A stretch of 64,000 nucleotides of DNA from Halanaerobiales bacterium (GTDB taxonomy: Bacteria > Bacillota > Halanaerobiia > Halanaerobiales > DTU029): the NCBI GenBank assembly GCA_022360715.1, contig JAKSCG010000137.1, positions 1 through 64,000 on the forward strand, in the 5' to 3' direction. The translations under genes were made by a program, and so were the position numbers. The number at the start of each line of letters is the position of its first letter. Position 1 is the stretch's first letter. Shown one piece after another: positions 3,907 to 32,815 of this stretch. A model generated the notes under the pieces. The model saw nothing but the letters and a program-made list of their open reading frames with translations. It was not told the DNA's origin and made no database searches.

Positions 3907-5190
3907 ATGAAATTAGAACTGGGTAAGATCAAGATTAAGGATATTATCTTCGCTAATAATACCGAAATAAAAGATGGGGTTTTAGCGATTAATCGTCAGG
4001 AATTGATCTCCCTCCTGGCTGAGCCCAGGATTAAGGAGTTAACGATTGAGTTGGCTAAACCCGGTGACCGGATTCGGATTATACCGGTTAAGGATGTCAT
4101 TGAACCCAGGGTTAAAGTTGAAGGGCCAGGTGGTATTTTCCCCGGGTTTATTGCCGGGGAGGAGATCGTTGGCTCGGGTAAAACCCATGCCCTGAAAGGA
4201 ATGGCGGTAGTAACTACCGGTAATATTGTCGGATTCCAGGAAGGCATTATTGATATGGCGGGAGTAGGTGCTGATTATACCCCATTTTCGAAATTATTAA
4301 ATGTGGTTATAAGCTGTGAGGTAAGCGCCGGACTTCCTCAACATGAACATGAAGCCGTTCTCCGTATGGTCGGTTTGAAGGCAGCGGCTTATCTGGGTGA
4401 GGCCGGCCGGGAGATTAAGCCCGATCAAGTGGTCTGCTATCAACACAAACCGTTTTATGAAGCGATCAATGATTATCCCGACCTGCCCCGGGTTGGCTAT
4501 ATTTATATGTTGCAGAGCCAGGGACTGCTCCATGATACCTATGTTTACGGGGTTGATGCCAAGGAGATTTTACCGACCTTAATCTCACCGACCGAGGTGA
4601 TGGATGGAGCGATCATTAGCGGGAATTGTGTCTCAGCCTGTGATAAAAATGCGACCTATTTTCATCAAAATAATCCGGTGATTGAAGACCTTTACCGATA
4701 TCACGGCCGGGAATACAATTTTATCGGTACGATTGTTACCAACGAAAATGTCACATTAGCCGATAAAGAGCGGTCTTCCAGTTTTACGGCCCGATTAGCT
4801 GAGCAGTTAAAACTGGAGGCGGCAATAGTATCGGAGGAGGGTTTTGGCAATCCTGATGCCGACCTGATCATGAATTGTAACAAGTTGGAGGAAAAAGGGA
4901 TTAAAACCGTGCTAATTACTGATGAATATGCCGGAAGGGACGGTGCTTCACAATCCCTGGCCGATGCCAGCAAAAAGGCTAATGCGGTAGTAACGGCCGG
5001 GAATGCCAATCAGTTGATTACCCTGCCCCCGATGGAACAGACGATTGGAGAGCAGAGTCTGGCTGACGTAATTGCCGGTGGTTTCGCCGGGAGCTTAAAA
5101 GAAGACGGAAGTATTGAGGTAGAGATTCAGGCAATAACCGGTTCAACCAATGAACTCGGTTTTACCAAAATGACTGCCCGGTCATATTAA
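3907..5190 (+). CDS. grdE: Glycine reductase complex component B, alpha/beta proprotein
   Basis: 427 residues, the full family length. GrdE is made as a proprotein that is cleaved before a conserved Cys to give two subunits of protein B, the larger number ending with a pyruvoyl (carbonyl) group that forms a Schiff base with glycine. The cleavage motif [11 protein letters not shown] is present with the Cys at residue 241. With the selenoprotein GrdB it makes the substrate-specific component. No UGA codon. Ribosome site AAGGGGGGTG just before ATG 3907; it is followed closely by grdA. Confidence 0.95.
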
Positions 5191-5701: not shown

Positions 5702-7015
5702 ATGAGTCAAGGAAAGCTAAAGATCATCCATTATCTGAATCAGTTTTTCGGACAGATCGGCGGGGAAGAAAAGGCTAATATAGCGCCGCTAATTAAAGAA
5801 GGTCCGGTGGGACCCGGAGGAGCGCTCAATAATGGCCTGGCCGGTCTGGCTGAAATTAGTAAAACGATGATCTGTGGGGATAGCTATTTTAGTGAAAACC
5901 TGGCTGCCAGTAGGGCGGAAATAAAACAGATGCTAACCGAGGAAAAACCAGACCTGGTTCTGGCCGGACCGGCATTTAACGCCGGACGATATGGGATCGC
6001 CTGTGGAAATGTGGCCGAAATTGCCACTGAACTGGGGATTACTGTTATATCCGGTATTTACCCTGAAAACCCTGGTTACGACCTCTTTAAACAATATGCC
6101 TATTTTGTAGAGACAGGTGATAGTGCGGCTAGTATGCGCCAAGCTATTCCCAATATGATTAAACTGGTCAAAAGCTATTTTGAACAGGGAGGTAAATTGG
6201 GTTCACCGGAAGAAGCAGGGTATCTTCCGCGGGGAGTCCGTAAAAACCTTTTTGTTGAAAAAAGGGGTTCCCTCCGAGCAGTTGAGATGTTGATTAAAAA
6301 ACTTAAAGGAGAACAGTTTGAGACTGAATACCCGATGCCCGTCTTTGACCGGGTTGAGCCAAGGCCACCGGTCAAGGATATTACTAAAGCTACGGTTGCA
6401 CTGGTTACTTCCGGTGGGATTGTGCCGAAAGGCAACCCGGATCGGATTGAGTCTTCCAGTGCATCGAAATATGGTAAATATAGTATTGCCGGGCTTGATG
6501 ATCTAAGCACTGCGGAATATCAGACCGCTCACGGGGGATATGATCCGGTTTATGCCAATGAAGATCCCGATCGCGTCCTTCCAGTGGATACCTTGCGCGA
6601 GCTGGAAAAAGAGGGAAAGATAGGCAAAATGCATGACCATTACTATTCAACCGTCGGTAACGGGACAGCAGTTGCTGCCGCCCGGGCTTATGCCCGTGAG
6701 ATTGCTGACGAGTTGGTTAATGATGGTGTGCAGGCCGTTATTTTGACTTCAACCTGAGGTACCTGCACTCGTTGCGGTGCAACGATGGTAAAAGAGATCG
6801 AGAGGGCTGGTTTACCGGTTGTTCATGTTGCAACAGTAGTACCGATCTCCCAAACGGTAGGAGCCAATCGAATCGTCCCGGCAGTAGCTATTCCTTATCC
6901 ACTCGGTGATCCCAAGTTAGTCCGGGAAGAGGAAAAGTTGTTAAGGAGAGAACTGGTCGAAAAAACCTTAAAGGCGCTGGAGACGAATATTAGCGAGCAG
7001 ACGGTTTTTGCTTAA
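5702..7015 (+). CDS. grdB: Glycine reductase component B, selenoprotein gamma subunit
   Basis: 437 residues with selenocysteine at residue 352 (TGA 6755-6757) in the motif TSTUGTCTRCGA. ATG 5702 is chosen because AAGGAGGGGGTG lies just before it; the upstream in-frame GTG 5684 would place the ribosome site inside the gene. GrdB is the substrate-activating subunit that forms the Se-carboxymethyl bond to be handed to GrdA. The N-terminal part KIIHYLNQFFGQIGGEEKA is characteristic and separates glycine- and betaine-type GrdB only weakly; the grdE context argues for glycine. A naive call would give two fragments split at 6757. Confidence 0.96.
6755..6781 (+). promoter_or_regulatory. bSECIS-like hairpin of grdB
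   Basis: Directly after the UGA, TGCAC (6764-6768) pairs with GTGCA (6777-6781) around an 8-base loop TCGTTGCG. Size and distance from UGA fit a bacterial SECIS element. Confidence 0.65.
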
Positions 7016-14258: not shown

Positions 14259-14357
14259 GGGGGTGGCTGTGCCCATGGTGGGCACCTCGGACTTCAAATC
14301 CGGTGGCAGGACGGTAGACCGCTCTGTGGTGGGTTCGATTCCCACACATTCCCGCCA
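14259..14357 (+). tRNA. selC: tRNA-Sec (anticodon TCA)
   Basis: A 99-base long-form tRNA. Acceptor strand GGGGGTGG (14259-14266) faces ACATTCCC (14346-14353), then G and an encoded CCA. The D arm has a 6-bp stem, GTGCCC with GGGCAC, and a 5-base loop; the anticodon loop is CTTCAAA with TCA at 14294-14296; there is a long variable arm (CAGGACGG with CCGCTCTG); the T arm is GTGGG-TTCGATT-CCCAC. All are hallmarks of bacterial tRNA-Sec. The acceptor has two adjacent G-T pairs and a G-A mismatch at the eighth position. The prophage integrase gene begins about 110 bases downstream, so the 3' part is probably the attL site. Confidence 0.95.
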
Positions 14358-14466: not shown

Positions 14467-15615
14467 TTATGACAGTACTGAATCGAGTTTTTCAGCTGCT
14501 TCTTTTTGCATGTTTGGGGTAACATGAGAATATGTATCTAAAGTGGTAGATATAACAGAATGGCCTAACATTTCTTGAACTATTTTGGGATTGACATCTG
14601 CTTTTAGCATCATTGTTGCAAATGTATGTCTTAATACATGAATAGTATACATATCTGATAATCCGGCTTTTTTTCTTGCTTTCCTATATCGTTTATTAAC
14701 GGTGCTTGGATTGTATATAGTGCCGTTTTCCTTACAAAAAACAAGATCTAATGAGTTGTATTCAGATTGTAGGAATAACCGAATTTCTGTCTGCCTCTTT
14801 TTATGTTTTTTTAAAACATTAATAACAGCATCAGTAATGCTTATTGATCTGGTACTAGACAAGTTTTTAGTTCCTTTTATCATCGTCCCTGTACCCATTT
14901 TTGTTACTAATACCTGCCTTACTCTAATGGTTTTATTTTCAAGATCAACATCTTCCCATCTAAGCCCCAATAGTTCGCTTCTTCTCATACCCGTCCGTAA
15001 AGCAACAAAAATAAAAGAATACATCCAGGGATCATTTTCTACAGTGTTTAATAATTTTTTAACCTGGACTTTTGTCATGGCTACTATTTTGTTTTTCTTC
15101 TCAGGTTTTGGAGCATCCACAGCCCTTATAGGGTTGTATTTTATTCTTTGCCACTTTACGGCCTGATTTAAAGATTTTGATAATATCCTATAATGTTGTA
15201 ATAGTGTTTTTTCCGAAAGGCCTCCAGGCTGTCCATCTTTCCTTCCTTTAACACGTTTTTTGTTTAAGTATGTTTGTATATGCATTGGATGAAGCTGATC
15301 CAACTTAATAGCACCTAGAGCTGGTATTATATGAGTATTTACGATCATAGTATATCCATCATAAGTAGTCCCGGCTAATTGGGATTCCGCATAGTTTTCA
15401 AGCCAATACAAGAGGTATTCCTTAACAGTATAACCCCCAGGATCAACTACAATTCCCTGGTCCCTTTCAGCAATCTTTTGGGCTATCCAAACCTGGGCAT
15501 CCCTTTTCCGGTTAAATGTTTTCGCCTTTCTTTTTCGCCGACCAGTAGATGGATCTTTACCCATTTCAACAAAGGCTTTATATTTGCCATTTTCTTTTTC
15601 GGTAATTCGCGGCAT
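14467..15615 (-). CDS. int: Phage tyrosine integrase
   Basis: 382 residues with three domains: an N-terminal arm-binding domain (about 1-60, AP2-like, RITEKENGKYKAFVEMGKDP), a SAM-like core-binding domain (about 60-165) and a catalytic domain. Catalytic residues read R211 (TGMRRSELLG), H326 and R329 (HVLRHTFATM), H352 (GHSVISTT) and the nucleophile Y362 (DTYSHV). It integrates and excises the prophage at tRNA-Sec. The gene ends close to the tRNA, as usual for phages that use tRNA genes. Confidence 0.96.
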   Translation of the reverse strand: MPRITEKENGKYKAFVEMGKDPSTGRRKRKAKTFNRKRDAQVWIAQKIAERDQGIVVDPGGYTVKEYLLYWLENYAESQLAGTTYDGYTMIVNTHIIPALGAIKLDQLHPMHIQTYLNKKRVKGRKDGQPGGLSEKTLLQHYRILSKSLNQAVKWQRIKYNPIRAVDAPKPEKKNKIVAMTKVQVKKLLNTVENDPWMYSFIFVALRTGMRRSELLGLRWEDVDLENKTIRVRQVLVTKMGTGTMIKGTKNLSSTRSISITDAVINVLKKHKKRQTEIRLFLQSEYNSLDLVFCKENGTIYNPSTVNKRYRKARKKAGLSDMYTIHVLRHTFATMMLKADVNPKIVQEMLGHSVISTTLDTYSHVTPNMQKEAAEKLDSVLS

Positions 15616-19072: not shown

Positions 19073-19609
19073 TTGGATAACATAATTTTAGGCGACTTCA
19101 ATATGGACGAACTAGAAAGTAGGATTAATCAAACCCAATCTGTTATAAATAGAATTCTGCAAAAAATAACAGAAACAAATATATTAAAAGCCCAGGAAAA
19201 ACATCGGAATTTTTCCGAGATGAGTGAAGAATACTTAAAAATTAAAGACAAACTTTTAGGCTTCCCCCATGTAATCCAAAAACAAAAAGAAAACATTGCC
19301 GGACTAGAAGAGATTGCCGATCAAGCCGACCAAGAACTGAGATTATTGGAAGATACACAAAAATTACAAATTATTAATGAAGTTGATAGCGCCGGGAAGA
19401 AATTTTATTCCAACGATACAGCCCGGAATGCCGCCCTGGGTCAATGGAAACAGCACGATCTAGATTACCAGGAAGCCTGGGATGAATTGAAGGAAGCAAA
19501 AAGAAACCTGGAACAGGCTAAGTTTGAACTGGACAGGGCATATAACGAATACAAGTCATATCAAGCCATCGCCGGGATGTTAAGTGCCAGAATAAAAATG
19601 TTGGCATAG
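19073..19609 (+). CDS. Coiled-coil protein of unknown function
   Basis: 178 residues from TTG 19073 with AGGAGGAAT upstream. Nearly the whole chain is predicted coiled coil by its heptads (LESRINQTQSVINRILQKI, KEAKRNLEQAKFELDRAYNE). No catalytic motif. It sits before the structured RNA at 19622 and a few genes before the Rad50-like ATPase; it could be a structural or recombination accessory protein. Confidence 0.7.
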   Translation: MDNIILGDFNMDELESRINQTQSVINRILQKITETNILKAQEKHRNFSEMSEEYLKIKDKLLGFPHVIQKQKENIAGLEEIADQADQELRLLEDTQKLQIINEVDSAGKKFYSNDTARNAALGQWKQHDLDYQEAWDELKEAKRNLEQAKFELDRAYNEYKSYQAIAGMLSARIKMLA

Positions 19610-19621
19610 CTAATTCTTGAT

Positions 19622-19833
19622 CCCATAAAGGGCATAAATGAACTAAAAAAATGATGTGGCGACGATAGTTACTGGACACAGTAACCGAGCCTCAGGCGCA
19701 TTCCTTGGTGCAGAGACGGGATACAGCAAGGGGAACCCGTAAGACCTGATTTATGACCAGGTTTTTAAGGCGATAGATAAGACCTACGGGCCAGCGAGAA
19801 TCATTTTATTATTTAATGTATGCCCTTTATGGG
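19622..19833 (+). ncRNA. Candidate structured RNA closed by a 15-bp stem
   Basis: CCCATAAAGGGCATA (19622-19636) is exactly complementary to TATGCCCTTTATGGG (19819-19833). Inside, AAAATGAT near 19648 pairs with ATCATTTT (19799-19806), GTTACTG pairs with CAGTAAC around GACA (19668-19685), ACGGG pairs with CCCGT (19716-19740 region) and ACCTG pairs with CAGGT (19744-19762 region). The inside has no long open frame, is less A-rich than the flanks, and lies between two genes of one operon. I do not recognise the family. It ends 19 bases before the next gene's ATG, so it could also control that gene. Confidence 0.65.
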
Positions 19834-19852
19834 AGGGAAGGGAGCAACAACC

Positions 19853-20059
19853 ATGATATGTGTTGGTGATATCTTTACTGAAAAACAAATTGAAAATAAG
19901 TTAAAAAAAGAGGGGTTTCCTGTTAATAAATCAGAGTCGGATGATGGAAATATCATTTATCTAGATAAAGATGATATTATACTTGTTGTTCTGGGAAAAT
20001 ACAGAGGTGGTGTTCATAAAAGAGTTATCGCTGGTTATATGGCTCATTTTTATCGTTAA
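19853..20059 (+). CDS. Small phage protein, unknown
   Basis: 68 residues. ATG 19853 is chosen because GGGAGGGAAGGGAG lies before it; an in-frame GTA/ATG upstream falls inside the structured RNA. The sequence (FTEKQIENKLKKEGFPVN, IIYLDKDDIILVVLGKYR) looks like a small alpha/beta fold. No motif recognised. Its position directly behind the RNA element suggests linkage. Confidence 0.6.
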   Translation: MICVGDIFTEKQIENKLKKEGFPVNKSESDDGNIIYLDKDDIILVVLGKYRGGVHKRVIAGYMAHFYR

Positions 20060-20101
20060 TTATTACAATTTATAGGCATAACATGGAGGAAGGAGAATTG
20101 A

Positions 20102-20263
20102 ATGACTTTCAAAATAAAGGAAGTTTGCATGAACACCAAATGTAATTGTGGTCAGTCTTTTAACTTTACTTGGACAGAAGGAAGTCAGTTTGATTGGAGT
20201 TGCCCAGAATGTGGTAGAAGGTTGGGTATAGATAAAATGAAGGTTCAGCAGGAAGAATTATAA
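20102..20263 (+). CDS. Small zinc-ribbon protein
   Basis: 53 residues: MTFKIKEVCMNTKCNCGQSF and then WSCPECGRRLG. Two C-x-C/CxxC pairs form a likely zinc ribbon. GGAGGAAGGAG precedes the start. Its 3' end and following bases repeat at 20552. Function unknown; such proteins are common among phage early genes. Confidence 0.6.
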   Translation: MTFKIKEVCMNTKCNCGQSFNFTWTEGSQFDWSCPECGRRLGIDKMKVQQEEL

Positions 20264-20286
20264 TTACATAATTTAAGCCGGGGTAG
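20251..20286 (+). repeat. 36-base repeat, copy 1 (tRNA-like 5' end)
   Basis: Matches 20552-20587 at about 31 of 36 positions. Both copies cover the last codons of a zinc-binding protein (QEEL and stop), an AT-rich spacer and GCCGGGGTAG. Only the second copy continues into the tRNA-like element. Confidence 0.7.
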
Positions 20287-20303
20287 CAGAAAGGAGAGAA
20301 CAT

Positions 20304-20564
20304 ATGAAAGCTACAGGTATTGTTAGAAAAGTTGACCAATTGGGCAGGTATGTTATACCAAAAGAGCTTAGAAAAACAATGAAGATAGAAGAAAACCAGA
20401 CTAAATTAGAGGTTTTTATAGTAGACAAGGACACAATTGCCCTTAAGAGATTTGAATCTCAGCTTGCTTGTTCTATTTGTGGAGATCCTTTTGTAGGCTC
20501 AATAATGTACAAGGGTAAGCGTTTTTGTGTAGATTGTATTAAGGGATTGCAGGAAGAGTTATAA
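20304..20564 (+). CDS. AbrB/SpoVT-type regulator with C-terminal zinc finger
   Basis: 86 residues. MKATGIVRKVDQLGRYVIPK and ELRKTMKI form the swapped-hairpin AbrB DNA-binding domain. The tail adds CSICGDPF and CVDCIKG, two CxxC pairs that should bind zinc; many phage and clostridial AbrB-like proteins share this. It is probably a transition-state-like regulator of phage or host genes. Confidence 0.85.
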   Translation: MKATGIVRKVDQLGRYVIPKELRKTMKIEENQTKLEVFIVDKDTIALKRFESQLACSICGDPFVGSIMYKGKRFCVDCIKGLQEEL

Positions 20565-20587
20565 TTATATAATTCTGGCCGGGGTAG
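20552..20587 (+). repeat. 36-base repeat, copy 2
   Basis: See the copy at 20251-20286. Here GCCGGGG is the 5' acceptor strand of the tRNA-like element. Confidence 0.7.
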
Positions 20588-20657
20588 GGCTATGGAGCCC
20601 GAGCAGCGCGCAGTCAAAACGGAAAGCTAGGAGCAGGTTCAAATCCTGCCCCCGGCC
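20578..20657 (+). tRNA. tRNA-like element with abnormal anticodon region
   Basis: Acceptor GCCGGGG (20578-20584) pairs perfectly with CCCCGGC (20650-20656). U8-A9 follow; the D stem is GGGC/GCCC; the T arm GCAGG-TTCAAAT-CCTGC is canonical. The 32 bases between D and T arms (20601-20632) have no normal 5-bp anticodon stem; a loop GTCAAAA with CAA as anticodon is conceivable but its stem does not pair. No CCA is encoded. It may be a decayed phage tRNA or a tRNA mimic. Reported as tRNA-like, not as a working tRNA. Confidence 0.5.
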
Positions 20658-20684
20658 TACTATAAAATTAAGGAGGTGGAAAAA

Positions 20685-20903
20685 ATGTCATATATTCTAT
20701 ACATAGCATTGTATTTGTTAATAGGAGCAATATTCTGCATAGTGACAGAAGGAGTCTTGGGTAAGAACGACATAATGCTAGGTGGATTAATAGCTGTTTC
20801 TGTTTTGTGGCCTATATTGGTAGCAATATATATTTTCGTGCTTGTTGAAGAAAAGTTGAAAAATGTTGTAGTGTTTAAGGGCGAGTGGTTCAGGAAAAGT
20901 TAG
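20685..20903 (+). CDS. Small membrane protein
   Basis: 72 residues with two hydrophobic segments (YILYIALYLLIGAIFCIV; GLIAVSVLWPILVAIYIFVL) and a basic tail. ATG 20685 follows AAGGAGGTGG. Function unknown; early phage membrane proteins often serve exclusion or takeover, but nothing here shows it. Confidence 0.65.
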   Translation: MSYILYIALYLLIGAIFCIVTEGVLGKNDIMLGGLIAVSVLWPILVAIYIFVLVEEKLKNVVVFKGEWFRKS

Positions 20904-20929
20904 GAGGGAAGCGAGGAGGTGAATAATTA

Positions 20930-21091
20930 ATGGGAAGAACATTAGAACAGCGCATAATTGATTTGGAAAAAAACGTAAAAGAAATAGCTAAAATTACAGA
21001 TGGACATTTAAAAAGTTTAGATAATAATGTAAGGGATTTAAAAAGTAAAATTTTCAATAATAATGATAATGAAGGTTTTGACCCCGCTTAA
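20930..21091 (+). CDS. Small coiled-coil protein
   Basis: 53 residues, MGRTLEQRIIDLEKNVKEIA and so on, a single amphipathic helix with leucine/isoleucine heptads ending in an Asn-rich tail. GCGAGGAGGTG gives the start. Function unknown. Confidence 0.55.
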   Translation: MGRTLEQRIIDLEKNVKEIAKITDGHLKSLDNNVRDLKSKIFNNNDNEGFDPA

Positions 21092-21123
21092 TCGCTTTAA
21101 AAATTATTTAAAGGAGAGATAAT

Positions 21124-30000: not shown

Positions 30001-32511
30001 GTGGCAGACAATATATCAATAGAGATCTATACAAAGTTCCTTGAAAAAGCAAAATTAACTAAAGTTGACCGAGAAACCTTGAAAGTTACACGAGGTTTCT
30101 CGGACGCAATTATTGATAAATTCAAGTTCATATCCGGAAGGAAGCAAAACCGCCAAATTATTAATGACCTCCGGAAAGAATATGACGATCCGGTATTGCT
30201 TAAAGCCGGAATCCTGGAAGAGGTTAATAATAATCTTCGGCCATGCAGCCAGTTGCTGGATAGTCGAATAATCATCCCCTATCTTGATAATAATGAAAAG
30301 GTTACTCTTATCAGACCGCATAAGTTAGGGCTGGGTAATGTGCCAATACAAATTTATTGTCAATTATTACTTAAATCAAAGCCAGAACACATTATCATAA
30401 CAGAAGGAGAGTTTAAAGCGGTTGCTCTTAATCAATGGGATATTCCTGGAATAGCAGTTCCGGGAATTAGTTCTTTTGGAGGGAAATACTTTTCTAATTT
30501 GGTTGACCTGTTAAAAGAATTTGAGGTCCAGAAAATTACCGTAATATTTGATAATGAAACAAAGGATAATCCACGGTATAAAAGCTATAAAGAAAAACCC
30601 GAAGACCGGTGGGATACTCCATACTGGGCTTACATTATTGCCCAAAGATTATTAAAAGAGAATTTCAAGGTGAAGATCGGCCAACTACCCAAGGATTGGA
30701 TAGAAAACGGGAAAATAGACCTGGACGGAGCTCTGGCCCAAGGCAAAAGTAAAGAAGATATTATTTCAATAAGGGATAACGCTCTTTCCAGAACTGAATT
30801 TTTGAATTCTCTATCCGAAGAAGCTCAAAAGGTTGTTAGAAGAAAAATTGCAATGTATTTTTCGTCTAGTCCAATCTGGCGAAATTTTAATAAATACATG
30901 ATTAAAAGAAAGAAAGGTGATGCCGCATGGGATGAACAAATAAGTAATTTTATAATTGATATCAAGTCATCTTTTTTCACTCCTGATGGATGTAAAAGGC
31001 ATGTCCAATTTGCAAATGAATTTGGAGAAAAAAGCCGGACATTTGTTTTAGAACCGGCTGAAATGGCCGGAGTAGGAAAGTTTAAAGAATATTGTTTCAG
31101 TCGGGGTAATTATGTTTGGGAAGGTTCCGGAACCGATTTACAGGAGGTGTGGAAATACGAACTGATGAGAGATACAGGCGATATGATTTATATGCCGGAA
31201 GCAATTGGAGAAATAGAACCTGGATTCTGGTTGTTTGCTAACGTCGCAATTAAAGAAGGAAAAGTTTATCAACCTGATTCGGACGGCATTTTCTGGATTG
31301 ACGGAAAAGGGTATAAACCCCAATCACTTAATATCGGTCCGCGCGGCGAAGAGATGGAAGATGCTATACCGTCTTTATACACGGACCCGATTAATATCAA
31401 AGAAATAGCTAAAACAATTAAATTGTCGGTAGGCGGGTATCAGGCATACATAGGGCTAGGTTGGGTTGTAGCGACAATTTTTAGCAGAGTAATATTTGAT
31501 GAGTTTAAAAGTTTTCCTTTTATTTTCCCGCATGGTAAACGAGAAGCGGGAAAATCTACTTTCATGCGATGGATTATGAATTTTTTTGGTATTGAAACAG
31601 AGGGAACCAGTATAGCCGAATCATCTCAAAATTACATTATGAGAGCTCTTAGCTACTATTCATCAATGGGCGTGTGGTTTGATGAGTATAGAAATGAAAG
31701 GAGAATTACAGATAAGGACGGATATTTACGCTCTGCCTATAACCGACAACTTTCCGGGAAAGGTGTTAAGTCGGCATTTGGTACCCGGGCTTATAAAGTG
31801 AAAGGAACACTGGCTATCTCTGGAGAAGAATTGCCGCGGGATTCGGGTTTATATACCCGGTGTATTCCTTTGTATATGTCCGCCAATCGGAGAGAACGAC
31901 AAAACTATGATTGGCTTAACAGAATGAATGAAAAATTCTCGGGCTTTGTTTTTAAGTTGATCAAAGAATATGACCAGCTTAAAAACGACTTGCTATATAA
32001 TATCAAAAATTTAAAGTCTAAATTAATAGAACAGGACATCACGGATCGGACCGCAGAAAATTGGGCTATATTAGCCGGCGCTTATGTTACAACAGTTGAA
32101 TTTGATCAGGGTTTTATCGACTGGGTACTTGAAGCCTGCCAGGAGGTCCGGGAAGTTGCTGAAAACGAACATATTCTTAATCAATTTTGGTCCGATATTG
32201 CTATTATGCAAAGCAATAATGAAATTGGACTTAAAGAACTTAGAGTGCTTTACGAAGGTGGTAAAAGACTTTTGGCAATATGGTTTCCATCGGTTTATGA
32301 TAAATGGGCTGTTAAATTCCGACAAAAAACAGGGAAGGAACCTTTCGATAGTGCTTCCATTCATCAATACATTAAAGATGAAGCTTATTTCAAGGATTAT
32401 AAGTCTATTAGGTTAGATGGAAAAATAAGAAAATGTTTCGTTCTCGATCCTGAAAAAGGCCCAGGATATCTTAAAGAAATTAGAAGATTTATTCGGGATG
32501 ATAATGTCTAA
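30001..32511 (+). CDS. Phage primase/helicase: TOPRIM plus P-loop ATPase
   Basis: 836 residues from a GTG. An N-terminal region carries TOPRIM features: IIITEGEFKAVALNQ (Glu motif, near 137) and KITVIFDNETKDN (DxD-like, near 180). A C-terminal ATPase follows: FIFPHGKREAGKSTFMRW (Walker A, near 515) and VWFDEYRNE (Walker B, near 561). A zinc-binding primase domain is not obvious. It is the probable replication initiator/helicase, and the origin-like repeats begin at its stop codon. Confidence 0.8.
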   Translation: MADNISIEIYTKFLEKAKLTKVDRETLKVTRGFSDAIIDKFKFISGRKQNRQIINDLRKEYDDPVLLKAGILEEVNNNLRPCSQLLDSRIIIPYLDNNEKVTLIRPHKLGLGNVPIQIYCQLLLKSKPEHIIITEGEFKAVALNQWDIPGIAVPGISSFGGKYFSNLVDLLKEFEVQKITVIFDNETKDNPRYKSYKEKPEDRWDTPYWAYIIAQRLLKENFKVKIGQLPKDWIENGKIDLDGALAQGKSKEDIISIRDNALSRTEFLNSLSEEAQKVVRRKIAMYFSSSPIWRNFNKYMIKRKKGDAAWDEQISNFIIDIKSSFFTPDGCKRHVQFANEFGEKSRTFVLEPAEMAGVGKFKEYCFSRGNYVWEGSGTDLQEVWKYELMRDTGDMIYMPEAIGEIEPGFWLFANVAIKEGKVYQPDSDGIFWIDGKGYKPQSLNIGPRGEEMEDAIPSLYTDPINIKEIAKTIKLSVGGYQAYIGLGWVVATIFSRVIFDEFKSFPFIFPHGKREAGKSTFMRWIMNFFGIETEGTSIAESSQNYIMRALSYYSSMGVWFDEYRNERRITDKDGYLRSAYNRQLSGKGVKSAFGTRAYKVKGTLAISGEELPRDSGLYTRCIPLYMSANRRERQNYDWLNRMNEKFSGFVFKLIKEYDQLKNDLLYNIKNLKSKLIEQDITDRTAENWAILAGAYVTTVEFDQGFIDWVLEACQEVREVAENEHILNQFWSDIAIMQSNNEIGLKELRVLYEGGKRLLAIWFPSVYDKWAVKFRQKTGKEPFDSASIHQYIKDEAYFKDYKSIRLDGKIRKCFVLDPEKGPGYLKEIRRFIRDDNV

Positions 32512-32783
32512 GTTACAAAGTTACAAAAAGTTACACTTCAGGTTACACTCGTGGGCGTTGTTATAACAGGTCTCGTAAGGCCCTGTAACTTTGTAACCTG
32601 AAAACCGGCTCTATATAGAAATTTTAAGTTCCTTTAATTTCTTGCAGATTTACATCTTAAATATAATTTTATACGTTTTTAATCCCCAGCCAGGTTACAA
32701 AGTTATACACCATTTAAAAATCCTGATATAGCAGTAATTATGGGCGTAACTTAAACGTAACTTTTTGTAACTTTGTAACCTGG
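32512..32783 (+). repeat. Candidate replication origin with iterons and a large inverted repeat
   Basis: The stretch holds GTTAC-containing repeats in both orientations. The 23 bases at 32512-32534 are exactly inverted at 32757-32779; each arm has three GTTAC units. Two more blocks, CTGTAACTTTGTAACCTG (32583-32600) and CAGGTTACAAAGTTATAC (32691-32708), lie between. The core is AT-rich. There is no gene here. The position directly after the primase/helicase fits a phage origin. Confidence 0.65.
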
Positions 32784-32815
32784 AAATCGGCCTTTAAATG
32801 AAGGAGTTGGAAATA

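Follow-up and report, generated by a model that had tools for sequence, protein, structure and literature searches.

A 214-nt element at positions 19621-19834 of the window (the 64,000-nucleotide stretch of DNA analysed here) lies between two early prophage genes and is bounded by a 35-nt inverted repeat whose arms are 89% complementary and 144 nt apart. The element is confirmed as a bounded structure, and its closing stem is certain; the same certainty does not extend to its inner architecture. We tentatively favour, with somewhat less than even confidence, the explanation that it is a lineage-specific RNA of about 0.2 kb, which RNase III would release from the early transcript by cutting the closing stem.

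The last 68 bp of the tRNA-Sec gene (14290-14357) are repeated unchanged at contig positions 74069-74136. This duplication corresponds to attL and attR and therefore places a prophage of about 60 kb in tRNA-Sec; its integrase is encoded at 14467-15615, and the 64-kb window covers most of it. A rightward early operon begins with Cro-like/repressor-type, antirepressor-like, and excisionase-like genes and continues with the gene at 19073, the element, five small genes, a tRNA-like stretch, a phrog_23155-type gene (21124), and SbcC-like genes. Together with the 68-bp attachment sites, these genes bear out the earlier note made on this DNA, which had placed the element in an early phage operon. The host part of the window also contains a tandem glycine riboswitch (1612-1800) and a SECIS_4 element (6758-6795).

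The upstream gene (19073-19609, + strand) encodes a coiled-coil-like protein of 178 aa with no assigned function, and its homologues occupy the same place in three related loci (L098, L115, and L139) and in other phages. A Gam-like identity, considered from the position of a gene annotated as Mu Gam-like in phage FP_Epona, was rejected as there was neither sequence similarity nor a profile match. The downstream gene (19853-20059, + strand) is an orphan of 68 aa with a Shine-Dalgarno sequence at about 19839-19844. The element starts 11 nt past the stop codon of the former and ends 4 nt before the Shine-Dalgarno sequence of the latter. No reverse transcriptase of the kind found in retrons was apparent by eye among the neighbouring ORFs.

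Pairing probabilities and the energy of the arm duplex (-33.4 kcal/mol) define the 5' arm of the closing stem at 19621-19655 and the 3' arm at 19800-19834, both on the + strand. Pairs form at 31 of the 35 positions, and 16 are uninterrupted at the base. The 5' arm contributes these 16 perfect pairs (19621-19636), followed by AU-rich pairs with four mismatches (A-G, G-A, C-U, and A-A, as read from the sequence) and by AAAAUGAU at its end. The 15-bp perfect stem described previously (19622-19636 with 19819-19833) is thus present and in fact comprises 16 bp, as 19621 and 19834 pair too, with a pairing probability of about 1 for most pairs at the base. The inner stem AAAATGAT/ATCATTTT (19648-19655/19800-19807), also described previously, was found at the inner end of the arms with probabilities of 0.76-1.0. 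When the window was scanned for inverted repeats whose arms are no more than 400 nt apart, the element scored 23. This is far beyond chance, as the highest score among 40 Markov-randomised windows was 16.

Folding of the whole element gave a z-score of -5.4 for the + strand and of -6.7 for the - strand, with no shuffled sequence performing equally well. The 144-nt core without its arms gave z -1.3 on the + strand, hardly better than shuffled sequence, and did slightly better on the - strand, with a modest z -2.2. Because the core alone reaches only z -1.3 (+), nearly all of the folding signal must come from the closing stem. This distribution, and a position exactly between two genes, would be expected if the helix alone matters, acting in cis on processing or stability so that the message of the 19073 gene is kept apart from that of the small genes, with the core as its loop. 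The ribozymes of related phages described below would cut the same operon. However, a 144-nt, GC-richer core bearing a hairpin with a pairing probability of about 1 exceeds the needs of a loop, and simple processing hairpins are local. A role for the helix alone is in our view unlikely, yet a serious rival to the favoured explanation.

The folding signal is strong on both strands and does not by itself assign the element to one of them. Equal strength on both strands, and the symmetry of the inverted repeat, make a DNA-level structure a serious rival to the RNA reading. Without any RNA role, the element could be a MITE-like remnant or other non-autonomous mobile element, an invertible segment, or a protein-binding inverted repeat; it sits in a lineage-specific insert, and a further long inverted repeat of this prophage, at 32504-32787, looks DNA-level. 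A MITE would not be expected to occur as one genomic copy with none elsewhere among the collections searched, nor to lack a flanking direct repeat, and none was seen by eye between 19610-19620 and 19835-19845. Similarly, the region between the repeats has no promoter-like site, which argues against an invertible promoter. We consider a DNA element rather improbable overall. The second repeat (38 nt, 84%) contains several GTTACAAAGTTAC-type units as well as an additional pair of inner arms, close to 32590 and 32700, and sits between the gene at 30001-32511 and the gene at 32798. It looks like a set of DNA-level iterons, perhaps of an origin.

Within the core, two of the at least three local hairpins proposed in the earlier note are well supported on the + strand: GUUACUG-GACA-CAGUAAC (19668-19685) is firm, with a pairing probability of about 1, and AAGACCUG...CAGGUUUU (19741-19765, pairing 19741-19748 with 19758-19765) is likely, with probabilities of 0.5-0.8. 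The third is ambiguous, as CCCGU (19736-19740) has two about equal partners, ACGGG at 19716-19720 or UACGGG at 19785-19790. The latter pairs with CCCGUA (19736-19741) with a probability of about 0.45. Helix energies are also compatible with a possible H-type pseudoknot on the + strand at 19701-19740, in which UUCCUUG (19701-19707) would pair with CAAGGGG (19727-19733), and ACGGG (19716-19720) with CCCGU (19736-19740).

The two near-equal competing helices of CCCGU could be taken for a switch in a 5' leader regulating the 19853 gene, a role that had been suggested earlier and that the adjacent, co-directional position of this gene would suit. Leader function is, however, poorly supported because the Shine-Dalgarno sequence lies outside the element, in neither alternative fold, and because there is no intrinsic terminator on the + strand. 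No Rfam riboswitch was found either, and we regard control of the 19853 gene as quite improbable.

The element contains no ORF of at least 40 aa, in agreement with the earlier description of a region free of open frames. Searches of all six frames against Pfam gave no meaningful match, and searches of three frames against PHROGs gave no match; a coding remnant in the frame reading VATIVTGHSNRASGAF... was rejected on this basis. The GC content is 0.51 in the core, compared to 0.29-0.33 downstream and 0.39-0.45 where the upstream gene ends. The reported difference in composition from AT-rich flanks is therefore one-sided, being marked on the downstream side. No sigma-70-like promoter was found between 19622 and 19833 on the + strand, and no + strand terminator was found at the element.

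The previous description of the RNA as unrecognised agrees with our family searches. No Rfam 15 family reached its gathering score, and the best match in the element in a search at E 10 was cow-rumen-2, at 13.2 bits versus a gathering score of 66 (E 8). A likeness to group I introns noted by eye (CAGAGAC, AAGACC) was dropped, as there was no Rfam match at E 10. The hammerhead and twister-sister covariance models had no match in the element, while the same models match two related loci, L141 and L139, respectively. The GOLLD and ROOL models had no match in the element, which is only 214 nt long.

Searches of its own genome, 100 relatives, the class, and public phages and plasmids with blastn returned chance pieces only and no homologue. 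The element is single copy in its own genome, an assembly of 256 contigs that is about 92% complete. A covariance model, R1, was built from the one sequence, which limits its reach, and was run with stricter filters in searches above 40 genomes, so that distant homologues could be missed. R1 found no homologue in the genomes searched from the phylum (398), from the class (59), and from another class (13); these sets overlap and comprise about 440 genomes in total. The best stray match had an E value of 0.003 per genome over 398 genomes, where about one such match is expected by chance. R1 likewise found no homologue in 40 exonuclease regions and 160 loci with a phrog_23155-type gene, and exact core patterns gave chance matches in IMG/VR, as judged by context or model. 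With no homologue among the sets searched, there was therefore no covariation or paired change to examine.

Related modules were gathered by the exonuclease gene (loci L098-L137) and by alignment of the phrog_23155-type gene (L139-L298). The closest relative is L139, whose phrog_23155-type protein is 60% identical; there, just 35 nt separate the 19073-type and phrog_23155-type genes. The element is therefore part of an insert of about 1.5 kb in the present lineage (19610-21123, + strand), which this comparison delimits and which also contains five small ORFs and the tRNA-like stretch. The latter (20577-20657, about 0.75 kb downstream of the element) has an 8-bp acceptor-like stem with D-like and T-like arms (TTCAAAT loop). 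It matches tRNA-Sec weakly (25.2 bits against a gathering score of 47), is not called by ARAGORN, and its start (GCCGGGGTAG) has a short copy at about 20277-20286.

Two of the related loci carry known ribozymes in the same operon. L139 has a twister-sister ribozyme (38.5 bits, gathering score 34) at 4596-4671, some 0.7 kb upstream of its 19073-type gene, and L141 has a type II hammerhead (40.7 bits, gathering score 37) at 4282-4361, directly behind its phrog_23155-type gene; the 22 other loci of the group that were scanned had no ribozyme at the gathering score. Transcript-cutting RNAs are therefore at home in this operon. Hammerheads have been reported to flank genes or gene blocks in prophages, where processing of long phage transcripts has been suggested (Perreault et al. 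2011, PMC3088659). By analogy, and not by membership in that family, the element may process transcripts too, by a different route.

The ribozymes of these two relatives and the possible pseudoknot would also fit an undescribed class of self-cleaving ribozyme. That idea rests on position only: even at E 10 the element matches none of the known ribozyme families, and neither a homologue nor a conserved core was found. We rate it as very improbable. The broader proposal of a new class of RNA that evolves fast in phage early operons, either an effector RNA or an unknown ribozyme, and that replaces the known ribozymes of related phages is improbable, if somewhat less so.

Positions 4596-5098 of L139 contain, in order, the twister-sister ribozyme, an inverted repeat with arms at 4773-4786 and 4915-4928, and a tRNA-like stretch in which a single acceptor-like stem (GGCAGGG/CCCTGCC) encloses two T-arm-like units; the 19073-type gene lies downstream of all three. 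The stretch bounded by these arms (4773-4928) could be a far relative of the element, with a similarity that is not significant (19 of 100 shuffles were equally good). It has no clear homologue itself; its many weak genome matches consist of short pieces that are either AT-rich or T-arm-like. Structured-looking stretches of L139, L101, and L148 were compared with the core, and none was significantly similar. In L101, the stretch at 1444-1690 is non-coding and GC-rich, follows an AbrB-like gene whose homologue in the window is at 20304-20561, and has a closing stem AAGGUUGC/GCAACCUC with z -1.5.

Returning to release by RNase III, the RNA would be a cargo of the prophage, situated in its early operon. 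It is presumably transcribed within the early polycistronic message, because no promoter or terminator of its own is seen. The ends of the element's transcript would then zip into the long, near-perfect helix, where the RNase III encoded by the host (256.8 bits) could cut, freeing the hairpin-rich core as a separate RNA. The same cut would also divide the message, with the 19073 gene on one side and the small genes that follow on the other, and the released core might bind a host or phage protein or RNA. This proposal draws support from the beyond-chance helix, the intergenic position, the lack of coding content, the GC-richer core, the variable insert, and the ribozymes in relatives. Counting against it, the core folds near the shuffled level on the + strand, and, without covariation, selection on RNA structure is not separated from selection on DNA structure. 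RNase III prefers roughly two helical turns. The 16 uninterrupted base pairs fall short of this length, and a longer helix would need the mismatched AU-rich part.

Bacillota phages carry intergenic structured RNAs of unknown role, and the element, if it is a discrete RNA, adds an orphan to them. Like the twister-sister (RF02681, L139) and type II hammerhead (RF02276, L141) ribozymes, it is a non-coding RNA candidate near 19073-type and phrog_23155-type genes in an early operon. The effect expected of those ribozymes is a cut in the polycistronic message, as proposed for the element. Unlike them, it falls in neither family, has two to three times their length, and is closed by a long helix. The comparison suggests that related phages exchange transcript-cutting or structured RNAs at this early operon, a possibility open to a survey. 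GOLLD and ROOL are non-coding RNAs of phages and prophages whose role is unknown and which often lie near tRNA islands (PMC12286853). The element resembles them in lying near a tRNA-like stretch, but differs in its size of about 0.2 kb (GOLLD often exceeds 0.8 kb), its lack of an Rfam match, and its lack of relatives. A claim to a new class would need relatives or biochemistry. Among stable RNAs, pre-rRNA and the Bacillus scRNA precursor are bounded by RNase III processing stems. The element differs from these in its unrelated sequence, in a core that is not conserved, and in being a candidate from sequence alone. As in those precursors, however, a long helix closes a hairpin-bearing core within a longer transcript, and RNAs processed by RNase III share this architecture of such a helix set in a polycistronic message. 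The element is thus an orphan whose kind is known: a candidate structured RNA that lies between phage genes and has one significant helix.
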